Source: Solirubrobacterales bacterium (lineage in GTDB: Bacteria > Actinomycetota > Thermoleophilia > Solirubrobacterales > Solirubrobacteraceae). From it: a stretch of DNA of 35,426 nucleotides. The stretch spans positions 1 through 35,426 of the forward strand of contig JAFAPR010000282.1 in NCBI GenBank assembly GCA_019247075.1, given 5' to 3'. The translations under genes and the position numbers were made by a program. Under the pieces are notes generated by a model. The model searched no databases. It had not been told where the DNA came from and worked only from the letters and a program-made list of their open reading frames with translations. The stretch's first letter is position 1, and every line of letters starts with the position of its first letter. Below are positions 1,757 through 22,913 of this stretch, piece after piece.

Positions 1757-2863
1757 TCAGGCGGACTCGCTCAGCCGTGCGGCCGCAAGCGCGAGCACCC
1801 GCGCAATCGTAAGTCCTGCCTGCTCGCCGTCGTCTGACGCGAACTCCTTTGCGCCCTGGTCCGTGTGAAAAGCCCAGCCGCCCTCGCGCCCGACGCCAAT
1901 CAGCGCGGCGCGAGTGCGCCGGGAGATGTTTCCGAAGTCGGTCGCGAACGGCAGCGGCTGTGGATCGTCTACGAACCGGCGGTCAATCGCGTGGAAGGCG
2001 TCCGCCACAGCGGCGGTTAGCTGGGGATCCGGCGCCACGCCCTGGTAGAGCGGGCCCTCCTGCCACTTGCCGGGGAGCCGCGCACGGACCTCGGCGGCGC
2101 GCTCCTCGAGCACCTGCTCGCTCGAGCCCCAGAACAGGAACGTGCATTGCACCCCCAACGCCGTTCCCTCCTCGACGTCGCCATCCAAGACGAGCCGCTC
2201 GAGCATGACTTCGCCGGGGCGCTCGGCGTCGATGGCGGCGCGAGCGGCGCTCAGCGGCGCCTGGTCGGCGCCGCTGAGCGAGCGCGAGCCGAACACGGTC
2301 AGGCGGTCGCGGCGCATCCACAGCGACTGGAGCGAGACGGTATCGACGAATTCGGGATGCGCGTACAGTGCCGCATCGACGTCGTCCCAGAAGCCGGCCT
2401 CGACGGTGAGCGCCTTACCGCCGCCGCGCTCGACGGTACCCGGCGCGTGGATCTCGTCCGCGGGACAACCCATGACCGTGACGACGCCGCCGAGCTCGTC
2501 ACGGAGGTCGGCCAGCGCCGCGGCGGCCGCGACGACGCCACCAGCGATCGGCCCGTGGCCACAGGAATGCACCGGCTCGACGCGACCGTCGTCGCGCAGG
2601 GTGGGCACAGCGTCATACAGACACACCAGGCCCACCGAGCGGCCGGGACGCACCCCGCGCAGAACGGCACGGAAGGCGGTCGCAATGTCGCCGACGCCCG
2701 GTTCGACCTCGAGGCCGGCACGGGCGAGCGCCTCGCAGAGGTAGCGCGAGCACTCGTGCTCCTCGTGGCCAAGCTCCGGGTGGGCGTGCACGAATCGCAT
2801 CACCTCGCCAACCAGCGGGGCTCGCGCGTCGACCGCCGCGAGTACCTCACGCTGAGCGATCAC
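1757..2863 (-). CDS. M20 family metallo-amidohydrolase
   Basis: A 368-residue protein of the M20D/aminoacylase type, which hydrolyses amide bonds of N-acyl amino acids and related compounds. Visible landmarks are DAVPTL, the metal-site segment SCGHGPIAGG (usually CGHD in the family), GCPADEIHAPGTVERGGGKALTVEAGF, and ALYAHPEF. The metal-binding Asp after CGH is replaced by Gly, which is unusual. It is the last gene of the catabolic operon, and its GTG start overlaps the TGA of the alcohol dehydrogenase gene by 4 bases. In a B6 pathway an amidohydrolase is needed after ring opening, to remove the N-acetyl group from the opened ring. The Mesorhizobium enzyme for that step is an alpha/beta hydrolase, so assigning this M20 protein to it is inference. 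Confidence 0.8.
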   Translation of the reverse strand: MIAQREVLAAVDARAPLVGEVMRFVHAHPELGHEEHECSRYLCEALARAGLEVEPGVGDIATAFRAVLRGVRPGRSVGLVCLYDAVPTLRDDGRVEPVHSCGHGPIAGGVVAAAAALADLRDELGGVVTVMGCPADEIHAPGTVERGGGKALTVEAGFWDDVDAALYAHPEFVDTVSLQSLWMRRDRLTVFGSRSLSGADQAPLSAARAAIDAERPGEVMLERLVLDGDVEEGTALGVQCTFLFWGSSEQVLEERAAEVRARLPGKWQEGPLYQGVAPDPQLTAAVADAFHAIDRRFVDDPQPLPFATDFGNISRRTRAALIGVGREGGWAFHTDQGAKEFASDDGEQAGLTIARVLALAAARLSESA

Positions 2864-3891
2864 GTCGTAAGTACGACCTTCGTCGCCTCGCGCGTGTCGA
2901 ACGCCCGGTAGGCGGCGGAGGCATCGTCGAGCGGCAGCGTATCTGTGATCACGGCCGACGGCCGCAGCACACCGTCCTCGATCATCCTCAGCAGCCGCTC
3001 TCGGTCGCGGCTGGGGTTCCCAATCGCGAAGGTGAGGGTGATCTCCTTCTCGAACATCGTGGCGTTGTTGAGAGGGAAGTCGGGCTCGAAGTGCGCCCCC
3101 ACGACCGACACCACGCCCTGTGGTCGCACGAGTCCAAGTGCAGAGGTCATGGCGGCCGCAGAACCGGAGGCTTCGACAATTGCGTCAGCGCCGAGGCCTC
3201 CCGTCGCCGCGGAAACCGCATCGGCCGCACCATTGGGGTCGACTGCGCAGGCGCCGAGCGACTCGGCCAGTTGGCGCCTCGCGGGAACCCCATCGACCGC
3301 GATCACCCGCTGCCCGGAGGCACTGGCACAGATCACCGCCATCAGCCCGACCGGCCCACAGCCCAGAACGGTGACGAGCTCTCCCAGCCCAAGCGAGCAC
3401 TTCTCTACGGCCACCATCCCGGTGGGCAGGATGTCTGCGACGAAAACCGCGTCCTCGTTCGAGACGCCATCCGGAACCGGCCACAGGCAGCGGTCGGCCC
3501 GCGGCACACGCACCAGGTCGGCTTGCCCGCCATCGAGCCGCGGGTAAACACCTGAGTACCCAAAAAGAGCGCGCGATGCGCACTGCGTCGTCCTGCCGGC
3601 GCGGCAGTGGACGCACGTTCCATCCGAGGTCATGCTCGTGTTGACCACTCGCTGACCCGGCGCGGGCGAGCGTACGCCGTCTCCGGCGGACTCGACCACT
3701 CCTACGAACTCGTGCCCGAGCGTGGTGCCCAGCTCGAACCCCGGGGTATGGCCGTGGTAGGGGAGCAGATCCGCGCCGCAGATGGCGGTGTGCGTGATGC
3801 GCACGACGGCATCGGTGTCGCTCTCGAGTCGCGGCGCCGGCGCGTCCTGTACCTCGACGGCCTCGGTTCCGACGAGCTTGACCGCTCTCAA
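2860..3891 (-). CDS. Zinc-dependent medium-chain alcohol dehydrogenase
   Basis: A 343-residue MDR-family dehydrogenase. It shows the catalytic zinc Cys (AICGADLLPYHG), the GHE motif (TLGHEFVGVVESAGDGV), a structural-zinc-type loop with three of the usual four Cys (CVHCRAGRTTQC), and a Rossmann loop (VLGCGPVGLMAV). It oxidises an alcohol with NAD(P)+. The TTG start at 3891 overlaps the TGA of the VOC gene as TTGA, and the protein then begins MRAVKLVG, a typical family N-terminus. Pyridoxal breakdown needs a 5-hydroxymethyl oxidation from 4-pyridoxate to the aldehyde FHMPC. In Mesorhizobium an FAD enzyme does this, and none is seen here. This gene, beside the lactonase and FHMPC dehydrogenase genes, is a good candidate to replace it (inference). 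Confidence 0.88.
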   Translation of the reverse strand: MRAVKLVGTEAVEVQDAPAPRLESDTDAVVRITHTAICGADLLPYHGHTPGFELGTTLGHEFVGVVESAGDGVRSPAPGQRVVNTSMTSDGTCVHCRAGRTTQCASRALFGYSGVYPRLDGGQADLVRVPRADRCLWPVPDGVSNEDAVFVADILPTGMVAVEKCSLGLGELVTVLGCGPVGLMAVICASASGQRVIAVDGVPARRQLAESLGACAVDPNGAADAVSAATGGLGADAIVEASGSAAAMTSALGLVRPQGVVSVVGAHFEPDFPLNNATMFEKEITLTFAIGNPSRDRERLLRMIEDGVLRPSAVITDTLPLDDASAAYRAFDTREATKVVLTT

Positions 3892-4286
3892 GCCGGTTGC
3901 TCCAGCTCGATCAGATTGCCGTCGGGGTCGACCGCGAAGCAGCGGTGGCCCCCCCACGGAGGCGAGTAGGGCTCAGCCAGGAACGGCACTCCGGCCTGGC
4001 TCAGCTGGTCATGGGCCCGCAGACAGTCCTCGACCTCGAGCACCAGGATCGCCGCGAGCCGCGAGGGATCGGCAGGCGCGAGCAGATCCACACCCGGACG
4101 GTCCTCGGCGCGATGCCCCTGCTCCGCCAACGACAGCCGCGTGCCAGTGCAAGTCAAAGTCGCGTACGGAGGGTCCTCGTACAGTGCCTCCACTTCGAAC
4201 CCGAGTCGGTCGCGGTAGAACGCGAGCGAGCGCGCGAAATCCGCGACCGCCAGGATGGCCCCCGCTCTTGTCACCGCCACCGCCAT
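3888..4286 (-). CDS. VOC (glyoxalase/bleomycin-resistance fold) protein
   Basis: A 132-residue single-domain pair of beta-alpha-beta-beta-beta modules. The first module begins AGAILAVADFARSLAFYRDRLGFEVEALYED, and the second ends GVPFLAEPYSPPWGGHRCFAVDPDGNLIELEQPA, with the standard DPDGNxIEL end motif. VOC proteins are metal-dependent lyases, isomerases, extradiol dioxygenases or binding proteins. The sequence alone does not say which. It lies within the operon, its ATG overlapping the TGA of the SDR gene by 1 base and its stop overlapping the next start by 4. A role on a pathway intermediate is likely, but no step can be assigned. Confidence 0.85.
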   Translation of the reverse strand: MAVAVTRAGAILAVADFARSLAFYRDRLGFEVEALYEDPPYATLTCTGTRLSLAEQGHRAEDRPGVDLLAPADPSRLAAILVLEVEDCLRAHDQLSQAGVPFLAEPYSPPWGGHRCFAVDPDGNLIELEQPA

Positions 4287-5017
4287 CAGTCGCGGACGTG
4301 CCCCGCGTCGGCCACCACTACCTGGCCGGTGATCCAGCCCGACTCCTCGGAGGCAAGGAACGCCACCACCGGCGCGATGTCCTCCGGCAGCGCATGCCGG
4401 GGGATTGCCTGCAGCGACTGCACAAAATCGAACGCTTCCGCGTGCGGCGTGCCGAGGACGCCTTCCGTGCGGGTGATCCCGGGGGCGACTGCGTTGGCGG
4501 TGATCCCGTACTTGCCGAGCTCCGTGGCAAGCGCCCGGGTGAGCCCAACCACCCCGCCCTTTGCCGCCAGATAAGGGCCCATGTTCGGTGTCCCGGCCAG
4601 GAAGGCGTTCGAGGCGATCTGCACGATCCGTCCGTAGCCGGCGCCTCGCATCGGGCGCTCCACTGCCCGCGAGACCAGGTAGGCGCCGTCCAGGTCGACC
4701 GAGATGATCTTTCGCCAGTAGGCGAAGTTGACCTCGTCCCAGCTAACGAAGGGCACGATCGCCGCCGCATTGACGAGCACGTCGATCTTGCCGTAGCGGT
4801 CGAGCGTCTCACGCGCCATTCGGTTCGCGTCGCCCTCGCTCGAGATGTCCGCGTGGATGGCGAGACCGTCGAGCTCGGAGGCCACCTTGCCGGCGCCCTC
4901 GCCGTTGAGATCGACGGCGGCGATGCTGGCCCCCTCCTCGTGGAGCTTGTTGGCGATCGCCCTGCCGATTCCTTGGGCTGCGCCGGTGACGATCGCCACC
5001 CGTCCCTCGAGCCTCAC
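4286..5017 (-). CDS. SDR dehydrogenase, probable pyridoxal 4-dehydrogenase
   Basis: A 243-residue classical short-chain dehydrogenase. It has the NAD-binding loop TGAAQGIG (residues 11-18), NAAA near 83, and the catalytic Ser136, Tyr149 and Lys153. The specific blocks AIVPFVSWDEVNFAYWRKI, SNAFLAGTPNM and LTRALATELGKYGITANAV strongly resemble the pyridoxal 4-dehydrogenase (EC 1.1.1.107) of Mesorhizobium as I remember it. That enzyme oxidises pyridoxal in its hemiacetal form with NAD+ to 4-pyridoxolactone. The next gene upstream is the lactonase for that product, with a 4-base GTGA overlap, which supports the call. The GTG at 5017 is used because the protein then starts MRLEGRVAIVTGA. A generic 3-oxoacyl reductase is the alternative. 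Confidence 0.82.
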   Translation of the reverse strand: MRLEGRVAIVTGAAQGIGRAIANKLHEEGASIAAVDLNGEGAGKVASELDGLAIHADISSEGDANRMARETLDRYGKIDVLVNAAAIVPFVSWDEVNFAYWRKIISVDLDGAYLVSRAVERPMRGAGYGRIVQIASNAFLAGTPNMGPYLAAKGGVVGLTRALATELGKYGITANAVAPGITRTEGVLGTPHAEAFDFVQSLQAIPRHALPEDIAPVVAFLASEESGWITGQVVVADAGHVRD

Positions 5018-5814
5018 TGGGCACCTCCAGCGGCCGACAGCACTCCGCTGCCCGTGAACGTCTCGGGGGCGAGCGCGTAGCCCCGGAAGGCCTCGGCGTC
5101 GTGGGTGAAGATGACATCGGCCCCCCACTCCTTGGCCAAGCGCTTGATGCGCCGGATGGAGCGGACTCCGGCGACCGGGTCGATGTGGAAGCCTGCCTGT
5201 AGGTCGCTGGCATATGCCGCCGCCGTGTACGAGACGTCAGCCATGAACAGCAGCGGGCGGCCCCCCTCCAGCTCCAGCAGCATCGAGTAGTGCCCGATCG
5301 TGTGACCGGGCGTATGGAACAGGTGGATCCCGTCGGCGAACTCGAGGTCGCCGTCCAGCAGCTCGAACTTGGCGTTCGGATGGTCGAAGCTCTTGTCTCC
5401 ATAGCCCAGGCGCTCGAACGGCTCGGGCGTGCGCGCCTCCCGCAGCTCGTCCTGGTGCAGGAAGGTGGTGGCGTTGACGAGATGCTTGTTGCCGCCGCAG
5501 TGGTCGAAGTGCAGATGCGAGTTGATCACTGCGTCGATCTCCTCGGGCTTGAAGCCGCACTTGGCGAGCTGAGCGGGGACGGTCTGCTCCGGCGTCTGCT
5601 CGGGCAGCTCAAAGGGCAGCACCGCATTGACCAGCTCGAGGTCGTAACCGGTGTCGAACATGAACAGTCCGTCGGGGTGCTCGATCAGCACGCTGTAGAC
5701 CGGGAAGCGGACGGGCGTCCCGCAGCCGATGTTCCACGTGATGTGCGACTGATCGATGACCAGCGTGCCGCTGTCGAGCAGTCGCACTCGAGTTGCCTTT
5801 GCCATTTCAGTCAA
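5014..5814 (-). CDS. MBL-fold lactonase, probable 4-pyridoxolactonase
   Basis: A 266-residue metallo-beta-lactamase-fold hydrolase. The zinc site is visible: H100-L-H102-F-D104-H105, then H171 (PGHT), D193 and H238. The family resembles N-acyl-homoserine lactonases and gamma-butyrolactone lactonases. The blocks VRFPVYSVLIEH, DTGYD, VLPFELP, SHLHFDHCGGNK, PEPFERLGYGDKSF, and FHIDPVAGVRSIRRIKRLA follow the 4-pyridoxolactonase (EC 3.1.1.27) of Mesorhizobium closely. It opens 4-pyridoxolactone to 4-pyridoxic acid in the cytoplasm; no signal peptide is seen. It lies between the genes for the preceding and following type of step, the SDR and the FHMPC-dehydrogenase-like protein. An ATG at 5805 is an alternative start. 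Quorum quenching is a less likely role, given the context. Confidence 0.85.
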   Translation of the reverse strand: MTEMAKATRVRLLDSGTLVIDQSHITWNIGCGTPVRFPVYSVLIEHPDGLFMFDTGYDLELVNAVLPFELPEQTPEQTVPAQLAKCGFKPEEIDAVINSHLHFDHCGGNKHLVNATTFLHQDELREARTPEPFERLGYGDKSFDHPNAKFELLDGDLEFADGIHLFHTPGHTIGHYSMLLELEGGRPLLFMADVSYTAAAYASDLQAGFHIDPVAGVRSIRRIKRLAKEWGADVIFTHDAEAFRGYALAPETFTGSGVLSAAGGAQ

Positions 5815-6727
5815 GCGCCTTTCTCACCGCCACCAGCGCGGCGGCGCGTTGTTGCTGCAGCTCCTTGATCCGCTCGGGCGTGTAGTCGAAGAAACCCCCG
5901 CCGGTCTTGATTCCCAGCCGCCCCTTGTCCTTGAGGTCGGCGGCCGTCTTCGAGACGCCCTTCTCGTCGGAGAGATCGCGGTTCAGGTAGCCGGCAACGC
6001 TCGTGTAGATGTCGAGGCCCGCCATGTCGAGCAATTGAATCGGGGGAACCACCGCGAGCTTGTAGCCGATGCCCCACTTGACGTTGAGGTCAAGACCCTC
6101 CAGGTCGATGACGCCCTCGTCGACGAGCGCCAGGCACTCTCGCATGATCGCGTAAAGCACGCGGTTCTCCACGAACCCCGGGACCTCCTTCTTGAGCGTG
6201 ACCGGGTGGTAGCCGATCCGTCGTGTCAGCTGCTGAATTGCGTTCGTCACCTCGGGCGAGGTTTGCTCGCCGGGAATGATCTCGTTCATGGGGATCAGGT
6301 GCGGCGGGTTGGACCAGTGCCATCCGATCACGCGCTCCGGCCGCTGAAGGCCCTGCGCCAGCTTGGTCGCCGGGATGCCCGAGGTGTTGGAAGCGATGAT
6401 CGTCTCGGGCGAGATCTCGTCCTCGATCTCCAGGAAGGTCTGCCGTTTGAGCTTGAGCTGCTCGGGGATCGCCTCGGCCACCACGTCGGTGCTGTCTAGC
6501 GCGGCGGCGCGTTCGCTCTCGTAGCTCACCCCACCGCCGTCGCGCTTGGGCACTTCCAGGCGGTCAAGCACACCCTCGACCATCCCCACCATCCCCTGCG
6601 CGCGCTCGAGCGCTTCGGGATTGACGTCGAACAGCGTCACCTGCAGCCCGGCGCGGGCGAGAACGGCGCCCATGCCGGGACCCATGGTTCCGGTACCGAG
6701 AACGGTCGCGCGGCTCAGTTCAGTCAT
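5807..6727 (-). CDS. 3-hydroxyacyl-CoA-dehydrogenase-type enzyme, probable FHMPC dehydrogenase
   Basis: A 306-residue, two-domain NAD-dependent dehydrogenase. The dinucleotide loop GTGTMGPGMG spans residues 11-20, followed by the central WHWSNPPHLIPMNEI and a C-terminal helical domain (VPGFVENRVLYAIMRE...WGIGYKLAVVPPIQLLDMAGLDIY). In ordinary fatty-acid 3HCDHs the equivalent centre reads HFFNP. The WSNPPH version and the C-terminal blocks match FHMPC dehydrogenase (EC 1.2.1.100) as I recall it. That enzyme oxidises 5-formyl-3-hydroxy-2-methylpyridine-4-carboxylate to the 4,5-dicarboxylate. There is a strong ribosome site (AGGAAGAGAG) before the ATG. It starts 13 bases after the Mo hydroxylase gene and overlaps the lactonase gene by 8 bases. 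A fatty-acid role is the alternative, but no thiolase or hydratase gene is nearby. Confidence 0.82.
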   Translation of the reverse strand: MTELSRATVLGTGTMGPGMGAVLARAGLQVTLFDVNPEALERAQGMVGMVEGVLDRLEVPKRDGGGVSYESERAAALDSTDVVAEAIPEQLKLKRQTFLEIEDEISPETIIASNTSGIPATKLAQGLQRPERVIGWHWSNPPHLIPMNEIIPGEQTSPEVTNAIQQLTRRIGYHPVTLKKEVPGFVENRVLYAIMRECLALVDEGVIDLEGLDLNVKWGIGYKLAVVPPIQLLDMAGLDIYTSVAGYLNRDLSDEKGVSKTAADLKDKGRLGIKTGGGFFDYTPERIKELQQQRAAALVAVRKALD

Positions 6728-6740
6728 AGCTCTCTTCCTC

Positions 6741-9038
6741 TTAGGGGGTTGACTTCGACAACTCCTGGATCCGTCGCCAGACGCGCTCCGGAGTCAGCGG
6801 CAGCTCCTGCATGGGCACTCCGGCGTCGGCCAGCGCGCAGACGATCGCCGCCGGAACGGCGGCGAAGGCGCCTTCGCCACAGCCCTTGGCGCCATAAGGG
6901 CCGGGGCCGTCCTCGTTCTCGACGATGATCGAGCGCATCCTTTTGGGGAGGTCGGCGACACGCGGGACGCGGTACTCGAGCAGGTTGTCGTTCGTCACCA
7001 GCCCATCCACCAGCCGCATCTCCTCGAACAGCGCATTGCCCACGCCTTGCAGCGTGGCGCCCTCGTCCTGCCGCTCGATCAGCTGGGGATTGATGGCCTT
7101 GCCCACGTCGGCGATCGTCGCGGTCCGCAGCACGTCGATGATCCCGGTGTCGGGATCGACCTCGACCTCGGCGCCGGCCACGCAGACCTCCCAAAAGTGA
7201 GGCCCCTCGGCATACGAACCTGTGTCGCCACCCGTCGGCCTGACCTCTCCACCTTCGATGATCTCCCCGCCGCGGAAGCCAAAGCGCTTGGCGATCAGGT
7301 CGGGAAACGTGATCTCCTCCCCGGAGAAGACCGCGTGACCGTCCACCAAGTCCACCAGCGTCGGGTCGACGTCCCAGACTTCCCCCGCCGTCTCCCTCAG
7401 CCGCTGCGCCACCGCGTCCGCGGCCCGCTTGACCGCCAGGCCGGCGACCGTGGTGGAGCGGCTCGCCCCCGTCGAGCGGTCGTACGGCGTGAACCGGGTG
7501 TCCGCGCCGTGGACGTGCACGAGCCCGCTGGAGACACCGAGCTCCTCGGCGGCGATCTGGGCCATAACGGTGCGCGGCCCCTGGCCAAGCTCTGTGGTGC
7601 CGACATACACATCCACCGAACCGTCCGAAGAGAGCCGCACGGAGGCTCGCGACACGGGGTGGGCTCCGGCCGCGAGCAGCCCCACGCTCACGCCGCGGCC
7701 GCGCCAAGGCCGCCGCGGCTCGTCCCATCCCACGGCGGCCGCGGCCTGCTCGACATCGCCCACGAGATCCGCGTCCAGCGGCTTGCCGGTGCCGTCGGGG
7801 CGCACGGGCTCGCCGGGCACGGCCAGGCAGCGGCGCCGGAGTCGCACCGGGTCCAGGCCCGCGCGGCGTGCGACCTCGTCGACCTGCGACTCGCCGATCC
7901 ATTGCAGATGGGTGGCGCCGAAGGCACGGTAGGACCCAGAGGGCGGCGTGTTGCAGTAAACGCAGTAGCCCTGAACGTCGGCGGCCTCGAAGCGGTACGG
8001 GCCGGGCGCCGCGTCGGCCGCGGTCGCGGTGACGCGCGGCCCGTTGTCGGCATATGCGCCCGTGTCCAGCCAGAAGTGGACCTCCCTGGTAAGGAGCGTC
8101 CCGTCCGCGCCCGCCGTCGTCCGCATCCAGCAGCGCATGCCATGGCGACGCGTCGTGACCATCGACTCCTCGACGCGGTTGACGATCCGCACGGGGCGGC
8201 CCGCCTTGCGCGCCAGCGCGACCGTCAGCGGCTCCATCTTCGTGTAGGACTTCGACCCGAATCCGCCGCCCAGGTAGGGGACCATGATGCGGACGGACCC
8301 GACCTGGAGCCCGAAGAGGTCGGCGATCTCCGCCTGGACCAGGAAGGGGTGCTGACAGTTGGCCCACAGCGTCACCCCGTCGCCGTGGTAGTGGGCGATC
8401 GTGGCGTGGGTCTCCATCGCGTACTGGTAGACGGCGGGAAAGGTGTAGGTGCCCTCGACCGTGATCGCCGCTTCTTTTCGCACTCGATCGATGTCGCCGG
8501 CGGAGATGGTGTGCCGGTAACACACGTTCCCCTGCTGCTCGCCGAGATCGCCGAGCCCGTGGAAGAGCCCGATCTTGGGGCGGCGATCGTGCAACCGCTG
8601 TGCATCCGCGGCGAGGGCTTGTTCGAGCGTCCCGAGCACCGGCAGCTCCTCGTACTCGACTTCGATCGCCCGCATCGCCGCCTCGGCGGTCGCCTCGTTC
8701 ACGGCGGCGACCGCGGCCACGGGCTCGCCGGCGAACCTGACGCGGTCCAGGGCGACGATCGGGCGGTCCTTGATGGCGTGCCCGTAGTACGGCTCGATGT
8801 CCTGGAGGTCATCGCCCGTGAGCACCGCGGCGACGCCTTCCATCTCCTGTGCGGCGCTGGTGTCGATCGAGGTGATCTTGGCGTGGGCTGTGGGGCTGCG
8901 CAGGATCTTGCCGTGAAGCATGCCCGCGACCTCCATGTCGCCGACGTACTGCGCCTGGCCCGAGAGCTTCTCGCGGCCGTCCTTGCGCGGCACCGAGGCG
9001 CCTACCTCGGCGAGTGTGGGGCGTTCGACGACGGTCAA
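6741..9038 (-). CDS. Molybdenum hydroxylase large subunit (xanthine dehydrogenase/CoxL family)
   Basis: A 765-residue molybdopterin-cytosine-dinucleotide-type subunit. The N-terminal aldehyde-oxidase domain starts at KDGREKLSGQAQYVGDM. The Mo-binding part shows LGGGFGSKS, SGSYRAFGATHLQ, TTELGQGPRTVMAQIAAEELG, and the active-site Glu in GAKGCGEGAFAAVPAAI. The AYRCSFR loop of true CO dehydrogenase is absent, so CO oxidation is unlikely. The family hydroxylates electron-poor carbons beside a ring nitrogen (nicotinate, quinoline, purines) or oxidises aldehydes, using water. The TTG start at 9038 has GGGAG about 8 bases before it; no ATG is in frame. The 2Fe-2S subunit gene is directly upstream, while the FAD subunit is about 24 kb away at 33745. 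Activity on the pyridine ring is inferred from the operon. Confidence 0.9.
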   Translation of the reverse strand: MTVVERPTLAEVGASVPRKDGREKLSGQAQYVGDMEVAGMLHGKILRSPTAHAKITSIDTSAAQEMEGVAAVLTGDDLQDIEPYYGHAIKDRPIVALDRVRFAGEPVAAVAAVNEATAEAAMRAIEVEYEELPVLGTLEQALAADAQRLHDRRPKIGLFHGLGDLGEQQGNVCYRHTISAGDIDRVRKEAAITVEGTYTFPAVYQYAMETHATIAHYHGDGVTLWANCQHPFLVQAEIADLFGLQVGSVRIMVPYLGGGFGSKSYTKMEPLTVALARKAGRPVRIVNRVEESMVTTRRHGMRCWMRTTAGADGTLLTREVHFWLDTGAYADNGPRVTATAADAAPGPYRFEAADVQGYCVYCNTPPSGSYRAFGATHLQWIGESQVDEVARRAGLDPVRLRRRCLAVPGEPVRPDGTGKPLDADLVGDVEQAAAAVGWDEPRRPWRGRGVSVGLLAAGAHPVSRASVRLSSDGSVDVYVGTTELGQGPRTVMAQIAAEELGVSSGLVHVHGADTRFTPYDRSTGASRSTTVAGLAVKRAADAVAQRLRETAGEVWDVDPTLVDLVDGHAVFSGEEITFPDLIAKRFGFRGGEIIEGGEVRPTGGDTGSYAEGPHFWEVCVAGAEVEVDPDTGIIDVLRTATIADVGKAINPQLIERQDEGATLQGVGNALFEEMRLVDGLVTNDNLLEYRVPRVADLPKRMRSIIVENEDGPGPYGAKGCGEGAFAAVPAAIVCALADAGVPMQELPLTPERVWRRIQELSKSTP

Positions 9039-9057
9039 GCGCTGGACTCCCGCGGGC

Positions 9058-9510
9058 TCACGCCGCCAACTCCCGCGCCGCCTCGAGGATCGAGCGGTAC
9101 CCGGTGCAGCGGCAGAGGTTGCCGTCGAGCCCATGCCGGATCTCCGCCTCGTTTGAGAGCTCGCCGTTGTCGCGCAGACTCTTGATCGTGAGCAGCAGGC
9201 CGGGAGTACAGTAGCCGCACTGAAGCGCGGCGTGCCGCAAGAAGGCGTCCTCGAAGCGCTCGAACTCCTGCATCTGCGCGAAGCCCTCGATCGTCAGGAC
9301 CTCCTTTTGATGCGCGTCGGCGGCGAGGTAGCTGCAGGCGCTCACGGGCGCGCCGTCGACCAGCACGGTGCACGTCCCGCACACCTGCACGTCGCAGGAT
9401 CGCTTCGCTCCGGTCAGCCCGAGGCGGTCGCGCAGGAAATCGAGCAGCAGCTCGTGGGGCTCGACCTCGGCCCGCAGCTCACGGCCGTTGACCGTCAGCG
9501 TCAGATCCAT
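9058..9510 (-). CDS. Molybdenum hydroxylase 2Fe-2S small subunit
   Basis: A 150-residue iron-sulfur subunit of the CoxS/xanthine dehydrogenase family. All eight cluster cysteines are present: C39, C44, C47 and C59 for the plant-ferredoxin-type cluster, and C98, C101, C133 and C135 for the second cluster (QCGYCTPG, LCRCTGY). It passes electrons from the Mo site to the FAD subunit. The length is normal for the family. Its gene sits between the class II aldolase gene (14-base gap) and the large subunit. No FAD subunit lies beside it; the only candidate in the window is at 33745. Confidence 0.95.
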   Translation of the reverse strand: MDLTLTVNGRELRAEVEPHELLLDFLRDRLGLTGAKRSCDVQVCGTCTVLVDGAPVSACSYLAADAHQKEVLTIEGFAQMQEFERFEDAFLRHAALQCGYCTPGLLLTIKSLRDNGELSNEAEIRHGLDGNLCRCTGYRSILEAARELAA

Positions 9511-9524
9511 TGCCGTGGCGGCCT

Positions 9525-10259
9525 CTAGCTCTCCTCGGGCATCCCGAAAGCCAGCCCGCCGCGGCGCAGCGCCCGTACCCAGGCGTCCCAGTACTCCGCG
9601 GCGAAATCCGACTGGTATTTGACGGCGTGGATCCCGTGCAGCAGCCGGTCGGGGATGGGATGCAGCTGCCCGATCGAGGAGGCGATCGCCTGCAATTGCA
9701 GCGTCCGCTCGAGTAGCGCGCTCGCGAGCACCGCCCAGCGTAGGTCGCGCTCGGCCACGAGCACGCCATGGTTGCGCAGCAAGAGCACGGTGCCAAGGCC
9801 AAGCGCTTCTGCCACCGCCGCCCCCTGCTGTTCGTCGATGATCAGGTCGGGCACCCCGTCGTAGGTCGCGATCCGGTCAATGAAGAACACGCTGTCGTGC
9901 GTCAGATAGGCGAACTCGGCGTCGGTCGCGCCGAAGGCCGTCGCGTAGGTCGGATGGCCGTGCACAACCGCGCGCACGTCGGGCCGGCGCTTGTAGACCT
10001 CGGTGTGGAGCACGGTCTCGAGGTGCATGCCCTTGGCGCCATTGCTCTCGTAGTTGCGTAGATCCACGGTCAGGATGTCTTCGGGCGCGACCTCGCCCAA
10101 CGCGACGCCCTTGCGCTTGATGTAGATCGTGCTGTCGTCCGAGGCGCGCGCACTGACGTGCCCGAGCGTGAGGTCCTCGTAGCCGAAGGTGGCGAGGATG
10201 CGACAGGCCCAGGCGACCTCCTCGATCAGCCGGCGGTCCTGGTCGACCGACACGCTCAT
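9525..10259 (-). CDS. Class II aldolase/adducin family protein, possible HMPDC decarboxylase
   Basis: A 244-residue protein with the class II aldolase fold. It shows GHVSARASDD near the N-terminus, the zinc ligands HGH (VVHGHPTYATAFG) and the third His in LLRNHGVLVAERDL. The family includes fuculose-phosphate aldolase and also metal-dependent decarboxylases, among them the 3-hydroxy-2-methylpyridine-4,5-dicarboxylate 4-decarboxylase (EC 4.1.1.51) of vitamin B6 breakdown. The operon places it just before the Mo hydroxylase and FHMPC-dehydrogenase genes, so that decarboxylase is the favoured role (inference; similarity is at fold-family level only). The ATG at 10259 is chosen over longer frames because GGGAGTGG precedes it and the upstream stretch is palindromic non-coding DNA. 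Confidence 0.8.
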   Translation of the reverse strand: MSVSVDQDRRLIEEVAWACRILATFGYEDLTLGHVSARASDDSTIYIKRKGVALGEVAPEDILTVDLRNYESNGAKGMHLETVLHTEVYKRRPDVRAVVHGHPTYATAFGATDAEFAYLTHDSVFFIDRIATYDGVPDLIIDEQQGAAVAEALGLGTVLLLRNHGVLVAERDLRWAVLASALLERTLQLQAIASSIGQLHPIPDRLLHGIHAVKYQSDFAAEYWDAWVRALRRGGLAFGMPEES

Positions 10260-10419: not shown

Positions 10420-10803
10420 TCATGATTCCCTCCGTTCCGTGGGCGGATAGTCGGGGTGCGGGAAGCCGAAGACCATCACCACTTCCTCCGCGCCCGTGTT
10501 GGCCACCGCGTGCCACACGCCCGCGGGGACGAATACCCCTTGACCCGCGGCGAAGGGCATGCTCTCCCCGTCGAGCCGGAGCTCGCCGGACCCGGCGACG
10601 ACATAGGCCACCTCCTCGGTCTCGTGCGCGACCATCGCGGTCACGCAGCCCGGGGTGAAGACCGAGTAGCCGAGCGAGGAGGAGTTCGCCCCCAGCGATT
10701 TCTGGTTGAGGACCATCCTGCTCCAGCTGCCGCCAGGCAGCGGGATTCGCTCGACGTCCTCCAGGTTGACGGTCTTGACGGCCTCCCGTTCTACAGCACC
10801 CAC
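10420..10803 (-). CDS. Small cupin-domain protein
   Basis: A 127-residue single cupin. Motif 1 is the segment VAHETEEVAYVVAGSGELRLDG, and motif 2 is GVFVPAGVWHAVANTG, so the metal-binding His/Glu set is mostly present. The start is GTG 10803, which overlaps the 3' end of the M29 gene by 13 bases; no ATG is in frame near the domain start. Small cupins in catabolic operons can be dioxygenases, isomerases or sensors. It lies directly after the M29-type gene in the same operon, so it may act on the same intermediate, but no reaction can be assigned. Confidence 0.82.
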   Translation of the reverse strand: MGAVEREAVKTVNLEDVERIPLPGGSWSRMVLNQKSLGANSSSLGYSVFTPGCVTAMVAHETEEVAYVVAGSGELRLDGESMPFAAGQGVFVPAGVWHAVANTGAEEVVMVFGFPHPDYPPTERRES

Positions 10804-13739: not shown

Positions 13740-15281
13740 ATGCATCGCGGCCAGATCGCCAGCAATACCGTGCCCGACCCCGTCGTTCGATACCTCCGCG
13801 GGCGAGACCTCAAGATGCTCGTCGGCGGCAAGTTCGTGGACGCCAGCGATGGAACCACGTCCGCGGTGGTCGACCCGTCCACCGGCGAGGTCGTCGGCGC
13901 GGTGCCCAGCGCGACCGGCGCCGACGTCGAGCGCGCGGTCGAAACTGCCCGCGAGGCGCAGGGGGCGTGGGAGGCGCTCGGGGTCGACGGGCGCGGCGCC
14001 TGCTTCCAGCGTTTCGCCGAGCTGCTGCAGAGCCACCGCGAGGAGCTGGCGGTTATCGACGCGATCGTGTCCGGCAATCCGGTCCGGGCGATGCGGGTGG
14101 ACATCGACCTGGTGCTGCCATACCTGAGGGGCTGGCCGCAGTTGGCGCGCTGGCTGACGGGAGAGGTGATCCCCGGATCGGCCGGGAACCTCCACTACAC
14201 CTCGTACCGGCCATACGGCGTCGTGGGTCGGATCACGGCCTTCAACCATCCGGTCATGTTCGCGGCGACGCGCCCGCTGCCGGCGCTGATCGCTGGCAAC
14301 ACGATCGTGATGAAGCCGGCCCCACCGGCAGCGGCGGCCGCGCTCGTGCTGGCCGAGTCGTTCGCGGAGGCCTTTCCGCCCGGGGTGGTGAACATCGTCA
14401 CCGGCGGGGCGCAGGTGGGTGACGCGCTCGTGACCCACGACGGGGTCAAGCGAATCGCCTTTACGGGTTCCGTTCCCACCGCGCTGACGATCCAGCGGCG
14501 GGCTGCGGAATCGGGACACGTCAAGCACATATCGCTTGAGCTGGGAGGAAAGAACGCGATGGTCGTGTTCCCCGACTTCGAGATCGACGAGGCCGTCGAG
14601 GGCGCGATCTTCGGCATGAACTTCAACGTCTGCCAGGGCCAGTCGTGCGGTTCGAACTCGCGCGTGCTCGTCCACCGCGCGATCTACGACGGGTTCGTCT
14701 CGCGAGCGGCGCAGCGCCTACGGGAATACACCGTGGGGGTCGCGTACGAGGATGCAACGGACATGGGCCCGCTGGTGAGCGCAAACCAGCGCGATCGCGT
14801 TGCCGGCTACCTCGAAACGGGCATGCGCGAGGGCGCGACGCTGGTCACCGGCGGCGAACACCCTGAAGGCGCGCCCGTTGGCGGCTACTTCCTGACGCCG
14901 GCCGTGTTCGCGGACGTCAAGCCGACTATGCGCATCGCCCAAGAGGAGATCTTCGGACCTGTTCTGTCGGTGCTCCCGTGGGGCGACTACGAGGAGATGC
15001 TCGCGCTGGCAAACGGGGTGAACCTTGGTCTCACCGCGAGCGTGTGGACCCACGATCTCGACCTCGCCCACCAGGTTGCCGAGCGCCTGGACGCGGGATA
15101 TGTGTGGGTCAATGACAGCGCCAAGCACTATTTCGGCACGCCGTTTGGGGGCACCAAGGACAGCGGCATCGGCCGCGAGGAATCCCGCGAGGAGCTGCTG
15201 AGCTATATGGAGACAAAGGTCGTAAACGTCCGCTTCCGCGACCCGCCGGGGGTGTTCGTGCGGATGATTTCTGGGCGCTGA
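13740..15281 (+). CDS. NAD(P)-dependent aldehyde dehydrogenase
   Basis: A 513-residue aldehyde dehydrogenase. It shows the cofactor loop (ITAFNHPVMFAATRPLPALIAGNTIVMKPA), the FTGS turn, the catalytic Glu in LELGGKNA, the catalytic Cys in GQSCGSNSR, and the C-terminal FGGTKDSGIGREES. It oxidises an aldehyde to an acid. The known B6 pathway ends in succinic semialdehyde, so a succinate-semialdehyde-dehydrogenase role is reasonable but not specific. It is the only gene of its unit and is divergent from the GntR gene, with the shared motif between them. The start is uncertain: ATG 13740 is used, while ATG 13815 begins closer to the normal family N-terminus (MLVGGKFVDASDG). Confidence 0.9.
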   Translation: MHRGQIASNTVPDPVVRYLRGRDLKMLVGGKFVDASDGTTSAVVDPSTGEVVGAVPSATGADVERAVETAREAQGAWEALGVDGRGACFQRFAELLQSHREELAVIDAIVSGNPVRAMRVDIDLVLPYLRGWPQLARWLTGEVIPGSAGNLHYTSYRPYGVVGRITAFNHPVMFAATRPLPALIAGNTIVMKPAPPAAAAALVLAESFAEAFPPGVVNIVTGGAQVGDALVTHDGVKRIAFTGSVPTALTIQRRAAESGHVKHISLELGGKNAMVVFPDFEIDEAVEGAIFGMNFNVCQGQSCGSNSRVLVHRAIYDGFVSRAAQRLREYTVGVAYEDATDMGPLVSANQRDRVAGYLETGMREGATLVTGGEHPEGAPVGGYFLTPAVFADVKPTMRIAQEEIFGPVLSVLPWGDYEEMLALANGVNLGLTASVWTHDLDLAHQVAERLDAGYVWVNDSAKHYFGTPFGGTKDSGIGREESREELLSYMETKVVNVRFRDPPGVFVRMISGR

Positions 15282-15342: not shown

Positions 15343-16137
15343 TCAGCGGTGCACTGGCGCAGAGGCCTCTTCGTCGCCGAAGAACAGCAGGCGCGCGTTC
15401 TTCGCCAGCACGCGGTCGAGCATCTCCGGACCGAGGCCGGAGACCTGGACCTTGCGGATCTCGACCCCGACCTCGTGGAAGGGAGCGTCGGACCCGTACA
15501 TCACCTTGTGCTCTCCCACTCGGTCGATCGCCTCTGTGATCTTCGTGTGCATGGGCATCCCGGATGTCTCCAGATAAACGTTCGCATTGCGCTGTGCGAC
15601 ATCGATCGCGCCATTGATGTAGACGATATTGCCGTGGCCCATGTGCCCCAGGATGACCTTCGCGTCCGGGAAAGACACGGCCAGTTCCTCGATGCTCCAC
15701 GGCAGGGTGAAGATGGGGTGGCCACAGTGGATGAGGACTGGCATGTCCCTCGCTATGAGCTCCTGGATCAACGGGTGGAGCGCCGGGTCGTTGGGGTGGT
15801 AGGCGTCAAGCAGCGGGTGCAGCTTCACGCCCAGGAAGCGCGGATGGTCAAACAGCTCGACCGCCTCCTCGAGGAAACCCTCCCTGTGTGGGTTTGCCCA
15901 CACAAGCCCATAGGCGCCATCGACGGAGTCGACCACTTCCCGCACGTACTGGTTGTCCGGATGGAACACCATTCCGGCTGAGATGCCGTAGTGCGCAAAG
16001 GTCGCGCGGAGGGTATCGGCATCCATGCGCACGTTGAACAGTGGAAAGTCGCCCACGTGCATGTGGGCATCCACGACGTCGGCCGGCGCGATTCCGGTCA
16101 CCGACGGTAGCTTCATGCCAGGTAGCTCGGCGCTCAT
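15343..16137 (-). CDS. Amidohydrolase family 2 (ACMSD-like TIM barrel) protein
   Basis: A 264-residue metal-dependent TIM-barrel protein. Expected ligands are visible: the HxH pair at 25 and 27 (DAHMHVG), Lys and His in GVKLHPLL, the His of LIHCGHP, GHMGHGN, and the Asp of YGSDAPFHE. The family contains hydrolases and non-oxidative decarboxylases such as ACMSD. It is the last gene of the unit that begins with the Pot-type ATPase gene, about 60 bases after the second permease gene, with a good ribosome site (GAGGGAAGG). It could decarboxylate an aromatic intermediate, for example the pyridine dicarboxylate, or hydrolyse a lactone or amide. This is inference from its place in the island. Confidence 0.85.
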   Translation of the reverse strand: MSAELPGMKLPSVTGIAPADVVDAHMHVGDFPLFNVRMDADTLRATFAHYGISAGMVFHPDNQYVREVVDSVDGAYGLVWANPHREGFLEEAVELFDHPRFLGVKLHPLLDAYHPNDPALHPLIQELIARDMPVLIHCGHPIFTLPWSIEELAVSFPDAKVILGHMGHGNIVYINGAIDVAQRNANVYLETSGMPMHTKITEAIDRVGEHKVMYGSDAPFHEVGVEIRKVQVSGLGPEMLDRVLAKNARLLFFGDEEASAPVHR

Positions 16138-16197
16138 TCGTACCTTCCCTCGTGGTCCGTGGGTTCATCGCTGCTCACGGCTTGGGCCACCGCTCGG

Positions 16198-17969: not shown

Positions 17970-17978
17970 GTGCGGCCG

Positions 17979-19133: not shown

Positions 19134-19158
19134 GATTCTCTCCTCGTTGGCATCGGTT

Positions 19159-20436: not shown

Positions 20437-20437
20437 C

Positions 20438-20484
20438 GTCAACTGTTGACAGTTCATTGTAACAGCGGCTAATCTGACCCGCAA
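20438..20484. promoter_or_regulatory. Divergent promoters with shared operator (Pot operon / aminotransferases)
   Basis: GTCAACTGTTGAC (20438-20450) is an inverted repeat with a 1-base centre, and it contains the shared 8-mer TGTTGACA (20444-20451). Plus strand: -35 TTGACA 20446-20451, 18-base spacer, -10 TAATCT 20470-20475, for the aminotransferase pair. Minus strand: -35-like TTGCGG 20484-20479, 17-base spacer, -10 TACAAT 20461-20456, for the Pot operon, whose transcription start would fall near 20449. A protein on the operator would cover the -35 of one promoter and the start of the other, so repression of both is expected (inference). Confidence 0.6.
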
Positions 20485-20515
20485 GGCGAGCATCACACAC
20501 CGAAGCGAGGTGACT

Positions 20516-21700
20516 ATGGAAGGCCCTGCGTTCATGCTTAACCCCGGTCCCGCGAGCGCGTCTCCGCAGACCCTGCGCGCCCTTTCGACCCCGGTCACCT
20601 ACCACAACGATCCGTTCTTCATCGAGCGCTTCCGCCGAGCGCAGGACCGCCTCGCGCAGATCCTCGAGACCCAGCACGACGTGGTCCTGATGCAGGGCGA
20701 GTGCATGCTCGGGTTGGAGGCGGCGGCGCGGTCGCTCGTATGGCCCGGAATGAGGTGCCTGAACCTGGCCTCCGGGATCTACGGCAAGGGCATGGGGATG
20801 TGGCTGCGCTCGTTCGGCGCCGAGGTGATCGAAATCGAGGTGCCCTTCCGGGACGTGGTCGATCCGGCCGACGTGCGCCGCGCGTTCGATGAGCACCCCG
20901 GCATTTCGCTGGTCACGGTCGTTCACTCCGAGACCCCGTGCGGGACGCTGACCGCCGTTGAAGAGATCGGGCCGATCGCAAAGGAACACGGCGCGCTCAC
21001 CCTGGTTGACGCCGCTTCGACCCTCGGCGGTGTCCCACTGCGGCCTGACGAGTGGAAGCTCGACGTGTGTGTCGGAGCCTCCCAGAAGTGCCTCGGCGCT
21101 CCGGCGGGCATCTCGCTCATGACCGTCAGCGACGACGCCTGGGGAGCAATGCGTGCCAACCCAGACGCTCCCAGAGCCTCGATTCTCTCGCTCCTGGACT
21201 GGAAGGAGTTGTGGCTGGAGCAGGGCAAGTTTCCCCTGACGCCGTCCATCTCCGATATGTACGGCGTCGACGCGGCGTTCGGTGAGGTCCTCGAAATCGG
21301 GGTGCCGAGGTACTTCGGGCGGCACGAGCGGGCCGCCGCCGCCTGTCGCGCCGGCATCGCAGCGATGGGCCTCGAGCTCTTCCCGCGCTCGGCGGACATC
21401 GCATCGCCGTGTGTGACAGCGATCGCGCTGCCGGATGAGATCGACGACCTTCAGCTGTGCGGCCACGTGCGCGAACGCTATGGCGTGGTCCTGGGGGACA
21501 GCGAAGGAGCCGGCAAGATCGTGCGCATCGGCCACATGGGAATTGCAGCGCGGTCCTTCGAACCCGTGGTTGGGCTGAGCGCCCTGGGGCGTGGACTCAT
21601 GGACTTCGGCGTCGAGGTGAGCTTGGGCGATGGCCTGGAGGCGGCCGCGATGGCGGTCGGCGAGGCCGCGCTGGAGACCGTTCAGGCGCCATCTGTGTAG
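20516..21700 (+). CDS. Class V aminotransferase, pyridoxamine-pyruvate aminotransferase-like (copy 1)
   Basis: A 394-residue PLP-fold enzyme of the alanine-glyoxylate aminotransferase group. The lysine that binds PLP in this group is K191 (GASQKCLGAPAG). Other blocks are GECMLGLEAAARSL, LNLASGIYGKGMGMW, VVHSETPCGTL, LVDAASTLGG, APRASILSLLDW and RIGHMG. These resemble pyridoxamine-pyruvate aminotransferase (EC 2.6.1.30), which uses free pyridoxamine as substrate rather than bound PLP as cofactor, giving pyridoxal and alanine. ATG 20516 follows a GAGG ribosome site. The second copy starts 16 bases after its stop. It is less like the Mesorhizobium enzyme at the N-terminus (LNPGP rather than LTAGP) than copy 2, so it may use another amine. 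Confidence 0.82.
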   Translation: MEGPAFMLNPGPASASPQTLRALSTPVTYHNDPFFIERFRRAQDRLAQILETQHDVVLMQGECMLGLEAAARSLVWPGMRCLNLASGIYGKGMGMWLRSFGAEVIEIEVPFRDVVDPADVRRAFDEHPGISLVTVVHSETPCGTLTAVEEIGPIAKEHGALTLVDAASTLGGVPLRPDEWKLDVCVGASQKCLGAPAGISLMTVSDDAWGAMRANPDAPRASILSLLDWKELWLEQGKFPLTPSISDMYGVDAAFGEVLEIGVPRYFGRHERAAAACRAGIAAMGLELFPRSADIASPCVTAIALPDEIDDLQLCGHVRERYGVVLGDSEGAGKIVRIGHMGIAARSFEPVVGLSALGRGLMDFGVEVSLGDGLEAAAMAVGEAALETVQAPSV

Positions 21701-21716
21701 CTAGGAGAGAGCCGCC

Positions 21717-22913
21717 GTGCGCCAACCAGATTTCACCCTCACCGCGGGGCCGACAATGGCCTCCCCCCGCGTCCTCTCCGCGCTCGGATCGCCGATCATC
21801 TTCGATTACGACCCGGTTTTTCTGGACCGCTTCCGGGAGACCGAGCGGCTACTGGCCGAGGTCTACCAAACGCAGAACGACGTCGTTCTGATGCAGGGCG
21901 AAGCGGTGCTCGGCCTGGAGGCCGCGGCGAGAGGTCTGGTGCAGACCGGAACGCGCTGCCTGAACCTGGTATCGGGCGTTTACGCCTCCTGGTTCGGCGA
22001 CTGGCTGCGCAAGTTCGGAGCCGAGGTCTACGAGGTCCGGGTGCCTTACGACGAGGCCCTCGACCCCGCCGGGGTCCAGCGGGCACTCGACGAGCACGGC
22101 CCGATCGAGGTCGTTTCGGTGGTCCACTCCGAGACGCCGTCGGGGGTCGAGAACCCGTTGGGCGAGATCGGTTTTGTGGCGCACGCCCACGGCGCGCTGA
22201 TGCTGGCGGATGTCGTCTCGTCCCTAGGTGGCACCGAGCTGCTGGTAGACGACTGGCACATCGACGTGGCCGTCGCCGGCCCCCAGAAGTGCCTGGCCGG
22301 CCCGCCGGGGATGTCGCTGATCGCGGTGAGCCCGCGGGCCTGGGAGGCCGTGGAAGCGAACCCGGCGGCTCCGCGGAGCTCTTTCCTGTCTCTGCTCGAC
22401 TGGAAGCTCCGCTGGATCGAGGGAGGCCGCACGGCGTTCCCATACACCCCGTCCGTCGCAGACGTTGGCGGGGTTCACGCCGCGCTTTCTGAGGCTCTGG
22501 AGGAGAGCCTTCAGACAACGATCTCCTGCCATGCGCGGGCTGCGCGCGCCTGCCGGGCGGGTGTTCGGGCTCTAGGGCTTGAGCTGTGGCCGCGCAGTGA
22601 GTCCTATGCCGCGAATTGCGTCACCGCGGTCAGGGCCCCTTCCGCGGTCTCGGTGCCGGAGGTGCTTTCGCACGTGCGCGAGCGCTATGGCGTTCAGCTC
22701 TCGGGCGGCTACGGAGAGCTTAAGGACAAGCTGCTCCGCCTGGGGCACATGGGACCGGCTTCTCGGTCCCTGTACCCATTGGTCGCCGTTTCTGCTTTAG
22801 GCCGGGGATTGGCTGACCTTGGAGTGTCGGTGGACATCGGTGCGGGAGCGCAGGCAGTAATGGACGCGCTGGCCGAGGCCACGGCCGCCCCACTGGAACA
22901 GTCGCTGACCTAG
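21717..22913 (+). CDS. Class V aminotransferase, probable pyridoxamine-pyruvate aminotransferase (copy 2)
   Basis: A 398-residue paralogue of the preceding gene, with the putative PLP/substrate lysine at K191 (GPQKCLAGPPG). FTLTAGPTMASP, FDYDPVF, GEAVLGLEAA, VRVPYDEALDP, VVSVVHSETPSG, VVSSLGG, APRSSFLSLLDW, FPYTPSVADVGG and RLGHMGP all correspond to blocks of the Mesorhizobium pyridoxamine-pyruvate aminotransferase as I remember it. This makes it the better candidate for EC 2.6.1.30, the entry of pyridoxamine into the pathway. The GTG start at 21717 is preceded by AGGAGAG. The gene is cotranscribed with copy 1 and convergent with the BMP permease genes. The alternative is a generic alanine-glyoxylate or serine-pyruvate aminotransferase. 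Confidence 0.85.
   Translation: MRQPDFTLTAGPTMASPRVLSALGSPIIFDYDPVFLDRFRETERLLAEVYQTQNDVVLMQGEAVLGLEAAARGLVQTGTRCLNLVSGVYASWFGDWLRKFGAEVYEVRVPYDEALDPAGVQRALDEHGPIEVVSVVHSETPSGVENPLGEIGFVAHAHGALMLADVVSSLGGTELLVDDWHIDVAVAGPQKCLAGPPGMSLIAVSPRAWEAVEANPAAPRSSFLSLLDWKLRWIEGGRTAFPYTPSVADVGGVHAALSEALEESLQTTISCHARAARACRAGVRALGLELWPRSESYAANCVTAVRAPSAVSVPEVLSHVRERYGVQLSGGYGELKDKLLRLGHMGPASRSLYPLVAVSALGRGLADLGVSVDIGAGAQAVMDALAEATAAPLEQSLT

Follow-up and report, generated by a model that had tools for sequence, protein, structure and literature searches.

A probable vitamin B6 catabolic operon with an apparently undescribed lower half in a Solirubrobacterales genome

The window analyzed here comprises 35,426 nucleotides, positions 1 to 35,426 of contig JAFAPR010000282.1 from a Solirubrobacterales bacterium (GenBank assembly GCA_019247075.1; genome G000, 87% complete). 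It carries a minus-strand operon that, in our judgment, probably encodes vitamin B6 catabolism, with an upper half already known and a lower half that appears to be undescribed. Comparisons of the predicted proteins make B6 catabolism by the genes of the window very likely, and a lower half different from that of Mesorhizobium loti likely. An earlier note on this DNA had proposed a B6 catabolic island; it left undescribed the most unusual part, the lower half, with a molybdenum (Mo) hydroxylase, a luciferase-like flavin oxidoreductase (LLM), an M29-fold protein, and a cupin. No description of the operon was found among the matches listed in the open-access literature on B6 degradation and pyridine ring cleavage; most work on B6 enzymes has appeared in journals that require a subscription.

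The operon runs from 13564 down to 1757 in the order GntR-LLM-M29-cupin-aldolase-MoS-MoL-HAD-MBL-SDR-VOC-ADH-M20, and its genes are tightly spaced or overlap (Table 1). The genes named in the earlier note were recovered as open reading frames (ORFs) at the same or nearly the same coordinates, with starts refined for SDR, MBL, and the aldolase, and our family scans agreed with the names. The scan covered 30 ORFs of the window; it did not extend to five ORFs of transporters or to a few short ORFs at the ends, and some transporter ORFs are labeled from position alone.

Predicted upper-half enzymes of the known B6 pathway

Two proteins of the upper half passed the cut-offs of curated models. SDR scored 356 bits against the pyridoxal 4-dehydrogenase model NF047923 (cut-off, 325), and MBL scored 376 bits against the 4-pyridoxolactonase model NF047925 (cut-off, 325). 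For HAD and the two proteins resembling pyridoxamine-pyruvate aminotransferase (PPAT), B6 models also led, but the cut-offs were missed: HAD reached 408 of the required 500 bits against NF042925, the model for dehydrogenase of 5-formyl-3-hydroxy-2-methylpyridine-4-carboxylate (FHMPC), and PPAT1 and PPAT2 reached 410 and 427 of 600 bits against NF046070. Each outscored its own second-best model (190, 171, and 187 bits, respectively) by 218 to 240 bits.

Solved structures gave a similar picture. SDR scored 260 bits to pyridoxal 4-dehydrogenase 3ndr (next, 171), MBL scored 270.6 bits to 4-pyridoxolactonase 3aj3 (next, 110.6, a quorum-quenching lactonase), and PPAT2 scored 330 bits to 2z9u (next, 153, PucG), so that in each of the three cases the top solved relative exceeded the runner-up in bits by a factor of 1.5 to 2.5. 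We take 2z9u, named "aspartate aminotransferase" in its PDB entry, to be the M. loti PPAT. On the model and structure scores, we rejected the readings of MBL as an N-acyl homoserine lactone (AHL) lactonase, of SDR as a FabG-type reductase, and of PPAT as PucG. Judged by scores rather than by trees, the proteins lie nearer to B6 enzymes than to fatty-acid, quorum-quenching, or photorespiratory enzymes, and the gene set recurs as an operon (see below); a B6 island, as the earlier note had proposed, is well supported by score.

In the alignment, E68, K197, and R345 of the M. loti PPAT chain are kept in both PPAT1 and PPAT2, and R336 is replaced, by Y in PPAT2 and by D in PPAT1. All four residues presumably have roles in the M. 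loti enzyme, where we take E68 to exclude the phosphate of pyridoxal phosphate (PLP). Because R336 is replaced, the amino acceptor of PPAT1 and PPAT2 may differ from pyruvate.

The SDR, MBL, and HAD genes adjoin or overlap, as the earlier note had observed. Its description of four consecutive steps does not hold. In what we take to be the M. loti order, a flavoprotein step from 4-pyridoxate to FHMPC stands between the lactonase and FHMPC dehydrogenase. Among the 30 scanned ORFs of the window there was no GMC flavoprotein 4-pyridoxate dehydrogenase, and a GMC query from locus L128 (a B6 cluster of another class, described below) gave no match in the window at E ≤ 1e-10. The scanned ORFs likewise included no FAD_binding_3 (MHPCO-type) ring-opening oxygenase and no alpha/beta-hydrolase that could serve as E-2-(acetamidomethylene)succinate hydrolase, both statements applying to the window only. 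The source genome has four FAD_binding_3 proteins at E ≤ 1e-10, none of which matches the flavin enzyme of relative G370 used as the query; MHPCO itself was not a query.

Conservation of the lower half and linkage to an importer

We searched 399 genomes of the window's class for the lactonase (NF047925, E ≤ 1e-80) and found it in 24, the source genome included, with 21 above the cut-off. The operon or pieces of it occurred in 19 of the 23 other lactonase genomes; the lactonase is more distant in the remaining four (G080, G010, G092, and G102). A profile built from 14 M29 proteins adjoining these lactonases was then run against the same 399 genomes (E ≤ 1e-60). It matched 24 genomes, 18 of them at 630 to 685 bits, all lactonase bearing, and 6 at 396 to 413 bits. 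M29 proteins of at least 630 bits were thus present in 18/24 lactonase genomes versus 0/375 others (Fisher, 1.9e-26); 14 of the 18 had built the profile, and the informative part of this comparison is the 0/375. The six lactonase genomes lacking a high-scoring M29 were the four with the distant lactonase and two in which the contig breaks off, G278 and G041. This distribution argues that the lower half belongs with the upper half.

A scan of named genomes with the M29 profile gave 46 loci, 44 with M29; judged by length, 15 of the 46 are contigs also in the class sample. The 46 loci were titled not only actinobacterial (Thermoleophilia, Solirubrobacterales, Acidimicrobiia, and others) but also Chloroflexi, Acidobacteria, Armatimonadota, Latescibacterota, and Rhodospirillales, so that "actinobacterial-type," as the earlier note had called the island, is too narrow. 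One operon-bearing metagenome-assembled genome among them (MAG; L099) is titled Bifidobacterium breve, probably wrongly. When neighbors were counted at M29 loci with room for them, accepting weak matches too (e.g., 38 to 41% for MoL in L090), the cupin was found in 41/42 (directly after M29), the aldolase in 40/40, MoL in 32/33, LLM in 36/37, HAD in 28/31, MBL in 24/29, and SDR in 22/29. LLM lay immediately upstream of M29 in 38/44 loci, and four of the other six were contig ends. Plasmid searches for MBL and M29 listed matches of 25 to 37% identity.

Other genes were less constant. Among the 23 other lactonase genomes, the zinc alcohol dehydrogenase (ADH) was present in 16 (G080 included), PPAT2 matches in 12, and the amidohydrolase-2 gene (AH2) in 8 (G080 among them), plus G033. 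MoM, the FAD subunit of the Mo-hydroxylase, occurred in 26 of the 46 loci obtained with the M29 query and in several relatives lay beside PPAT or within the operon. The earlier note had placed a class II aldolase and an aldehyde dehydrogenase (ALDH) in the island; both ORFs are present, but ALDH falls outside the conserved core, with only 37 to 38% matches in the regions of 2/23 other genomes and none in the 46 loci. ALDH and the Pot- and Liv-type ATP-binding cassette (ABC) transporters were considered as core parts and rejected on such weaker matches: G035 and G355 each have a potA match of 40 to 42% close to the operon, and the liv genes of L084 match at 28 to 36%.

Several results weigh against the B6 reading proposed here. 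In addition to the cut-offs missed by HAD and the PPATs and the replacement of R336, five of the six genomes with second-tier M29 proteins (396 to 413 bits) had no lactonase match, the sixth being G080. MBL was missing in 5 and SDR in 7 of the 29 M29 loci with room, which indicates that the upper module need not accompany the lower. In the window, 24 kb separate MoM from MoL. M20, an amidohydrolase, is modestly conserved, with matches of 52 to 54% in the fetched regions of 4/23 other genomes (G274, G288, G355, and G370). The aldolase-fold protein matched Mlr6791 (2z7b) in the PDB at E 2.4e-19, fifth in rank, with four proteins scoring above it. Finally, nearly all genomes compared are drafts or MAGs.

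Three MAGs titled Chloroflexi (L078, L084, and L086) carry an LLM-M29-cupin-aldolase-Mo-HAD module with neither a lactonase nor an SDR match at the locus, and no lactonase was found in their genomes at E ≤ 1e-40. Such modules perhaps start from 4-pyridoxate.

Genes for a BMP-type ABC importer stood beside the operon in 14/19 relatives (the contigs of the remaining five are 5 to 19 kb long) and in all three B6 clusters fetched from another class, that of the MAG titled Rhodospirillales (G577, G575, and G483; loci L123, L126, and L128). Because of this linkage, the BMP-type importer is the best candidate for B6 uptake. The clusters of that class resemble the window in having HAD, the BMP importer, and MBL (3/3), PPAT (2/3), and an adjoining SDR (2/3); in G575 the SDR match is about 19 kb from MBL and is cut by the end of the stretch. 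Unlike the window, all three encode a bicupin resembling gentisate dioxygenase together with a GST and an LVIVD protein; M29, the Mo-hydroxylase, LLM, and the small cupin had no match in the fetched stretches. Genome-wide, M29 was absent from G577 and G575 and had a 32% match in G483. These bicupin clusters are perhaps another B6 lower half. L128 also carries an HpaB-type hydroxylase. In the order of G577, FHMPC dehydrogenase was found at E ≤ 1e-100 in 14/17 genomes, 10 of them above the cut-off; from this set the cluster of G577 was the only one fetched.

Proposed ring hydroxylation and ring opening

The Mo-hydroxylase is of the xanthine dehydrogenase type, and its large (MoL) and FeS (MoS) subunits and what is probably its FAD subunit (MoM) are all encoded in the window, MoM not adjacent to the others. 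The best PDB match of MoL was 1rm6 (4-hydroxybenzoyl-CoA reductase), followed by 6-hydroxypseudooxynicotine dehydrogenase and quinoline 2-oxidoreductase, both named for N-heterocyclic substrates. Two relatives keep the operon without a MoL orthologue: G198 (one contig; best match, 37%) and G370 (none at E ≤ 1e-20). In both, a flavin monooxygenase gene adjoins ADH; the G370 copy belongs to PF01494 (FAD_binding_3), and the G198 copy is a 67% match. The nearest PDB relatives of this enzyme are decarboxylative 4-hydroxybenzoate/vanillate hydroxylases, then NicC among others, with MHPCO much weaker (E 1e-22). Matches of at least 61% occurred in 3 of 29 genomes searched (G198, G370, and G113), and matches of 32 to 38% occurred in G399, G312, and a second gene of G370.

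A Mo-hydroxylase attacks the carbon beside a ring nitrogen, and a flavin monooxygenase of the phenol type acts on positions ortho or para to a hydroxyl. In the B6 ring, C6 lies beside the nitrogen and para to the 3-OH and is the open position common to both enzyme kinds; we infer that the B6 pyridine is hydroxylated at C6 by one or the other. The exchange is not exclusive, which speaks against this interpretation: the flavin monooxygenase was present in 2/2 Mo-less versus 1/18 Mo-bearing class genomes (18/1140 = 0.016), and G113 has both MoL and, on another contig, the 61% flavin monooxygenase, around which the fetched 15 kb held no B6 genes. A precedent, as given in PMC6525221, is the conversion of 3-hydroxypyridine to 2,5-dihydroxypyridine and then to N-formylmaleamate.

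The predicted model of M29 (predicted local distance difference test [pLDDT] score, 80.8) had the dioxygenase NicX (7cn3) as its best Foldseek match (template modeling [TM] score, 0.72; E 1.8e-18), with the aminopeptidases PepS/AmpT/AmpS next (TM, 0.60 to 0.65); NicX was also its top PDB profile match (E 2.1e-4). The iron ligands of NicX, as listed in PMC7910607, are H265, S302, H318, and D320. The corresponding columns in M29 (alignment A2) hold E271, A297, H315, and D317, so that two of the four are changed. M29 is thus NicX-like in fold and not in its full metal site, and because of the changes at H265 and S302 we decided against placing it in the NicX family. E202 and H295 are invariant across the 14-member M29 family. 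A hydrolase is favored by E271 in the place of NicX H265 and by E202, E271, and H295 being common to the window M29 and a plasmid protein (L132) annotated as an aminopeptidase and 29% identical. We lean slightly toward hydrolytic over oxidative opening, M29 being about as likely as not a metal-dependent hydrolase whose step follows that of LLM; the fact that its best structural match is a dioxygenase and not the aminopeptidases counts against a hydrolase.

A further argument for hydrolysis comes from second-tier M29-cupin pairs, which occur in G080, G002, G056, G020, and G076, five genomes in which LLM was not found at E ≤ 1e-15; three of them have a distant Mo-hydroxylase near the pair. In G080 (L153 and L046) the pair stands with CCG/Fe-S, AFOR, DHO_dh, and UbiD genes, all on the minus strand. 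The adjoining stretch holds ADH, AFOR, PPAT, BMP permease/ATPase, and AH2 genes on the same strand, interrupted by one weak plus-strand call; the MBL and BMP binding protein genes are oriented opposite to this run. The AFOR, CCG/Fe-S, DHO_dh, and UbiD-type families are in general oxygen sensitive, and their position beside the pair favors a hydrolytic M29. We therefore suggest, tentatively and as rather unlikely in its full form, that B6 catabolism has a third lower half, modular in nature, whose M29-fold/cupin pair would open the ring hydrolytically; aerobes would prepare the ring with the Mo-hydroxylase or flavin monooxygenase plus LLM, and G080 would do so without oxygen via AFOR, DHO_dh-type, and UbiD proteins. 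In G002, G056, and G020 (L154, L155, and L157), M29 is 49 to 53% identical and no lactonase matched at E ≤ 1e-80; these pairs, each near a distant Mo-hydroxylase, perhaps serve other N-heterocycles.

If M29 were instead a functional analogue of NicX, it would be a mononuclear Fe(II) dioxygenase that cleaves the C5-C6 bond of 2,5-dihydroxy-6-methylnicotinate and yields an N-acetyl amide, with LLM and the cupin acting later. The fold and profile matches, the two kept ligands (H315 and D317), and the expected substrate, a 2,5-dihydroxypyridine, favor this idea; the two lost ligands and the oxygen-sensitive neighbors in G080 disfavor it, and we regard it as a possibility to be taken seriously but not the one we would choose. 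Like the 2,5-dihydroxypyridine route of 3-hydroxypyridine and nicotinate degradation, the proposed pathway would hydroxylate a 3-hydroxypyridine at an alpha position and then use a NicX/M29-fold protein; it differs in that half of the NicX metal ligands are changed, LLM and the cupin are added, and the ring is substituted. On a plasmid of Rhizobium sp. ACO-34A (L131, 5581 to 8157), a NicX homologue lies directly upstream of an annotated pyridoxine 4-oxidase gene, near genes annotated 4-hydroxyphenylacetate 3-monooxygenase and amidase.

An improbable alternative is that the small cupin is the ring-cleaving dioxygenase, acting on an aza-gentisate-like product, and that M29 hydrolyzes what is formed. 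The best PDB sequence match of the cupin is indeed a putative gentisate 1,2-dioxygenase (2d40, E 8.3e-10), its H52, E56, and H90 are invariant in 13/13 aligned proteins (alignment A3), and the other-class clusters carry the bicupin and GST noted above. By fold (AF2 pLDDT, 90.7), however, DddK, RemF, and other small cupins came first, with no gentisate dioxygenase among the 50 matches listed, and in G080 the cupin shares the oxygen-sensitive neighbors of M29. Least probable is a role of the operon in degrading some other, nicotinate-like pyridine or a purine, with its B6-like genes as paralogues: the Mo-hydroxylase, M29/NicX-fold, and aminotransferase families do include nicotinate-, nicotine-, and purine-related enzymes, but two curated B6 models scored above their cut-offs, PPAT2 is far closer to 2z9u than to PucG and keeps E68, and the other-class B6 clusters share MBL, HAD, the importer, and mostly PPAT.

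The best PDB matches of LLM were methylene-H4MPT reductases, which suggested dependence on F420. CofH had no match at E ≤ 1e-60 in 9 of 12 genomes reached via named loci, nor in the class genomes G326 and G274 (overall, 22/33 genomes matched; two further genomes reached were left out of the count). All nine CofH-less named-locus genomes carry an LLM 60 to 70% identical to that of the window. These genomes lower the case for F420, and LLM is probably not F420 dependent.

Proposed pathway and genes of the window

In the pathway that we propose for vitamin B6, the BMP-type importer would take up the vitamin, and PPAT would likely convert pyridoxamine to pyridoxal. By homology, SDR would oxidize pyridoxal to 4-pyridoxolactone and MBL would hydrolyze this to 4-pyridoxate. 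ADH (or HAD) may then form FHMPC, which HAD would likely oxidize to 3-hydroxy-2-methylpyridine-4,5-dicarboxylate. The aldolase-fold protein may strip the 4-carboxylate, and the three-subunit Mo-hydroxylase may hydroxylate C6, giving 2,5-dihydroxy-6-methylnicotinate, a pyridone. LLM and the M29-fold/cupin pair would open the ring, whichever protein makes the cut, and amide hydrolases (M20; an amidase in three relatives) may release acetate and ammonia.

Compared with B6 pathway I of Pseudomonas MA-1 and M. loti, the window has in common pyridoxal 4-dehydrogenase, 4-pyridoxolactonase, PPAT-like and FHMPC-dehydrogenase-like proteins, and a candidate class II aldolase-fold decarboxylase. It differs in having the Mo-hydroxylase, LLM, M29, cupin, VOC, and ADH and in the lack, among the scanned ORFs, of the GMC, MHPCO-type, and alpha/beta-hydrolase proteins. 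PMC3538738 describes two routes of B6 degradation and gives succinic semialdehyde as the end product in M. loti, a product that is not implied for the operon of the window.

The genes of the window are given in Table 1. Pot-type and Liv-type ABC transporters flank the B6 genes at 16198 to 20598 and 28816 to 33555.

Table 1. Features of the window, with proposed functions and supporting family assignments
Feature	Position	Strand	Families and remarks
GntR/FCD regulator, first gene of operon	12851..13564	-	PF00392, PF07729; in 28/46 M29-query loci (cut contigs included)
LLM, luciferase-like flavin oxidoreductase	11824..12858	-	PF00296
M29-fold protein, candidate ring-opening enzyme	10791..11819	-	PF02073; Foldseek best, 7cn3 NicX
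Single-domain cupin	10420..10779	-	PF07883
Class II aldolase-fold protein, candidate decarboxylase	9525..10259	-	PF00596
MoS, [2Fe-2S] subunit of Mo-hydroxylase	9058..9510	-	PF01799, PF00111
MoL, molybdopterin subunit	6741..9134	-	PF02738, PF20256, PF01315; ORF overlaps MoS, true start probably inside ORF
HAD, 3-hydroxyacyl-CoA-dehydrogenase family, FHMPC dehydrogenase-like	5807..6727	-	NF042925
MBL, predicted 4-pyridoxolactonase	5014..5805	-	NF047925; PDB 3aj3
SDR, predicted pyridoxal 4-dehydrogenase	4286..5017	-	NF047923; PDB 3ndr
VOC/glyoxalase-fold protein	3888..4286	-	PF00903; in 18/46 M29-query loci (cut contigs included)
ADH, zinc alcohol dehydrogenase, candidate enzyme for oxidation of 4-pyridoxate to FHMPC	2860..3957	-	PF00107, PF08240
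M20 amidohydrolase, candidate hydrolase of opened chain	1757..2863	-	PF01546; overlaps ADH
PPAT1, pyridoxamine-pyruvate aminotransferase-like	20510..21700	+	NF046070
PPAT2, pyridoxamine-pyruvate aminotransferase-like	21717..22913	+	NF046070; PDB 2z9u
AH2, amidohydrolase-2, associated in some relatives	15343..16137	-	PF04909
BMP-type ABC importer, proposed B6 uptake	22930..27985	-	PF02608, PF02653, PF00005; ORF 23886-25229 not scanned by itself
MoM, FAD subunit likely belonging to the Mo-hydroxylase of MoL and MoS	33745..34614	+	PF00941, PF03450; near contig end
ALDH, named in the earlier note	13740..15281	+	PF00171

If the operon does encode a third B6 lower half, it would show how the lineages whose loci are titled Thermoleophilia, Chloroflexi, and other uncultured groups break down the vitamin. 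It would also offer a possible new ring-opening enzyme in the M29 fold and, in the BMP-type ABC importer, a candidate for bacterial B6 uptake. Should the modular reading be true, the gene run of G080 would represent anaerobic degradation of vitamin B6.

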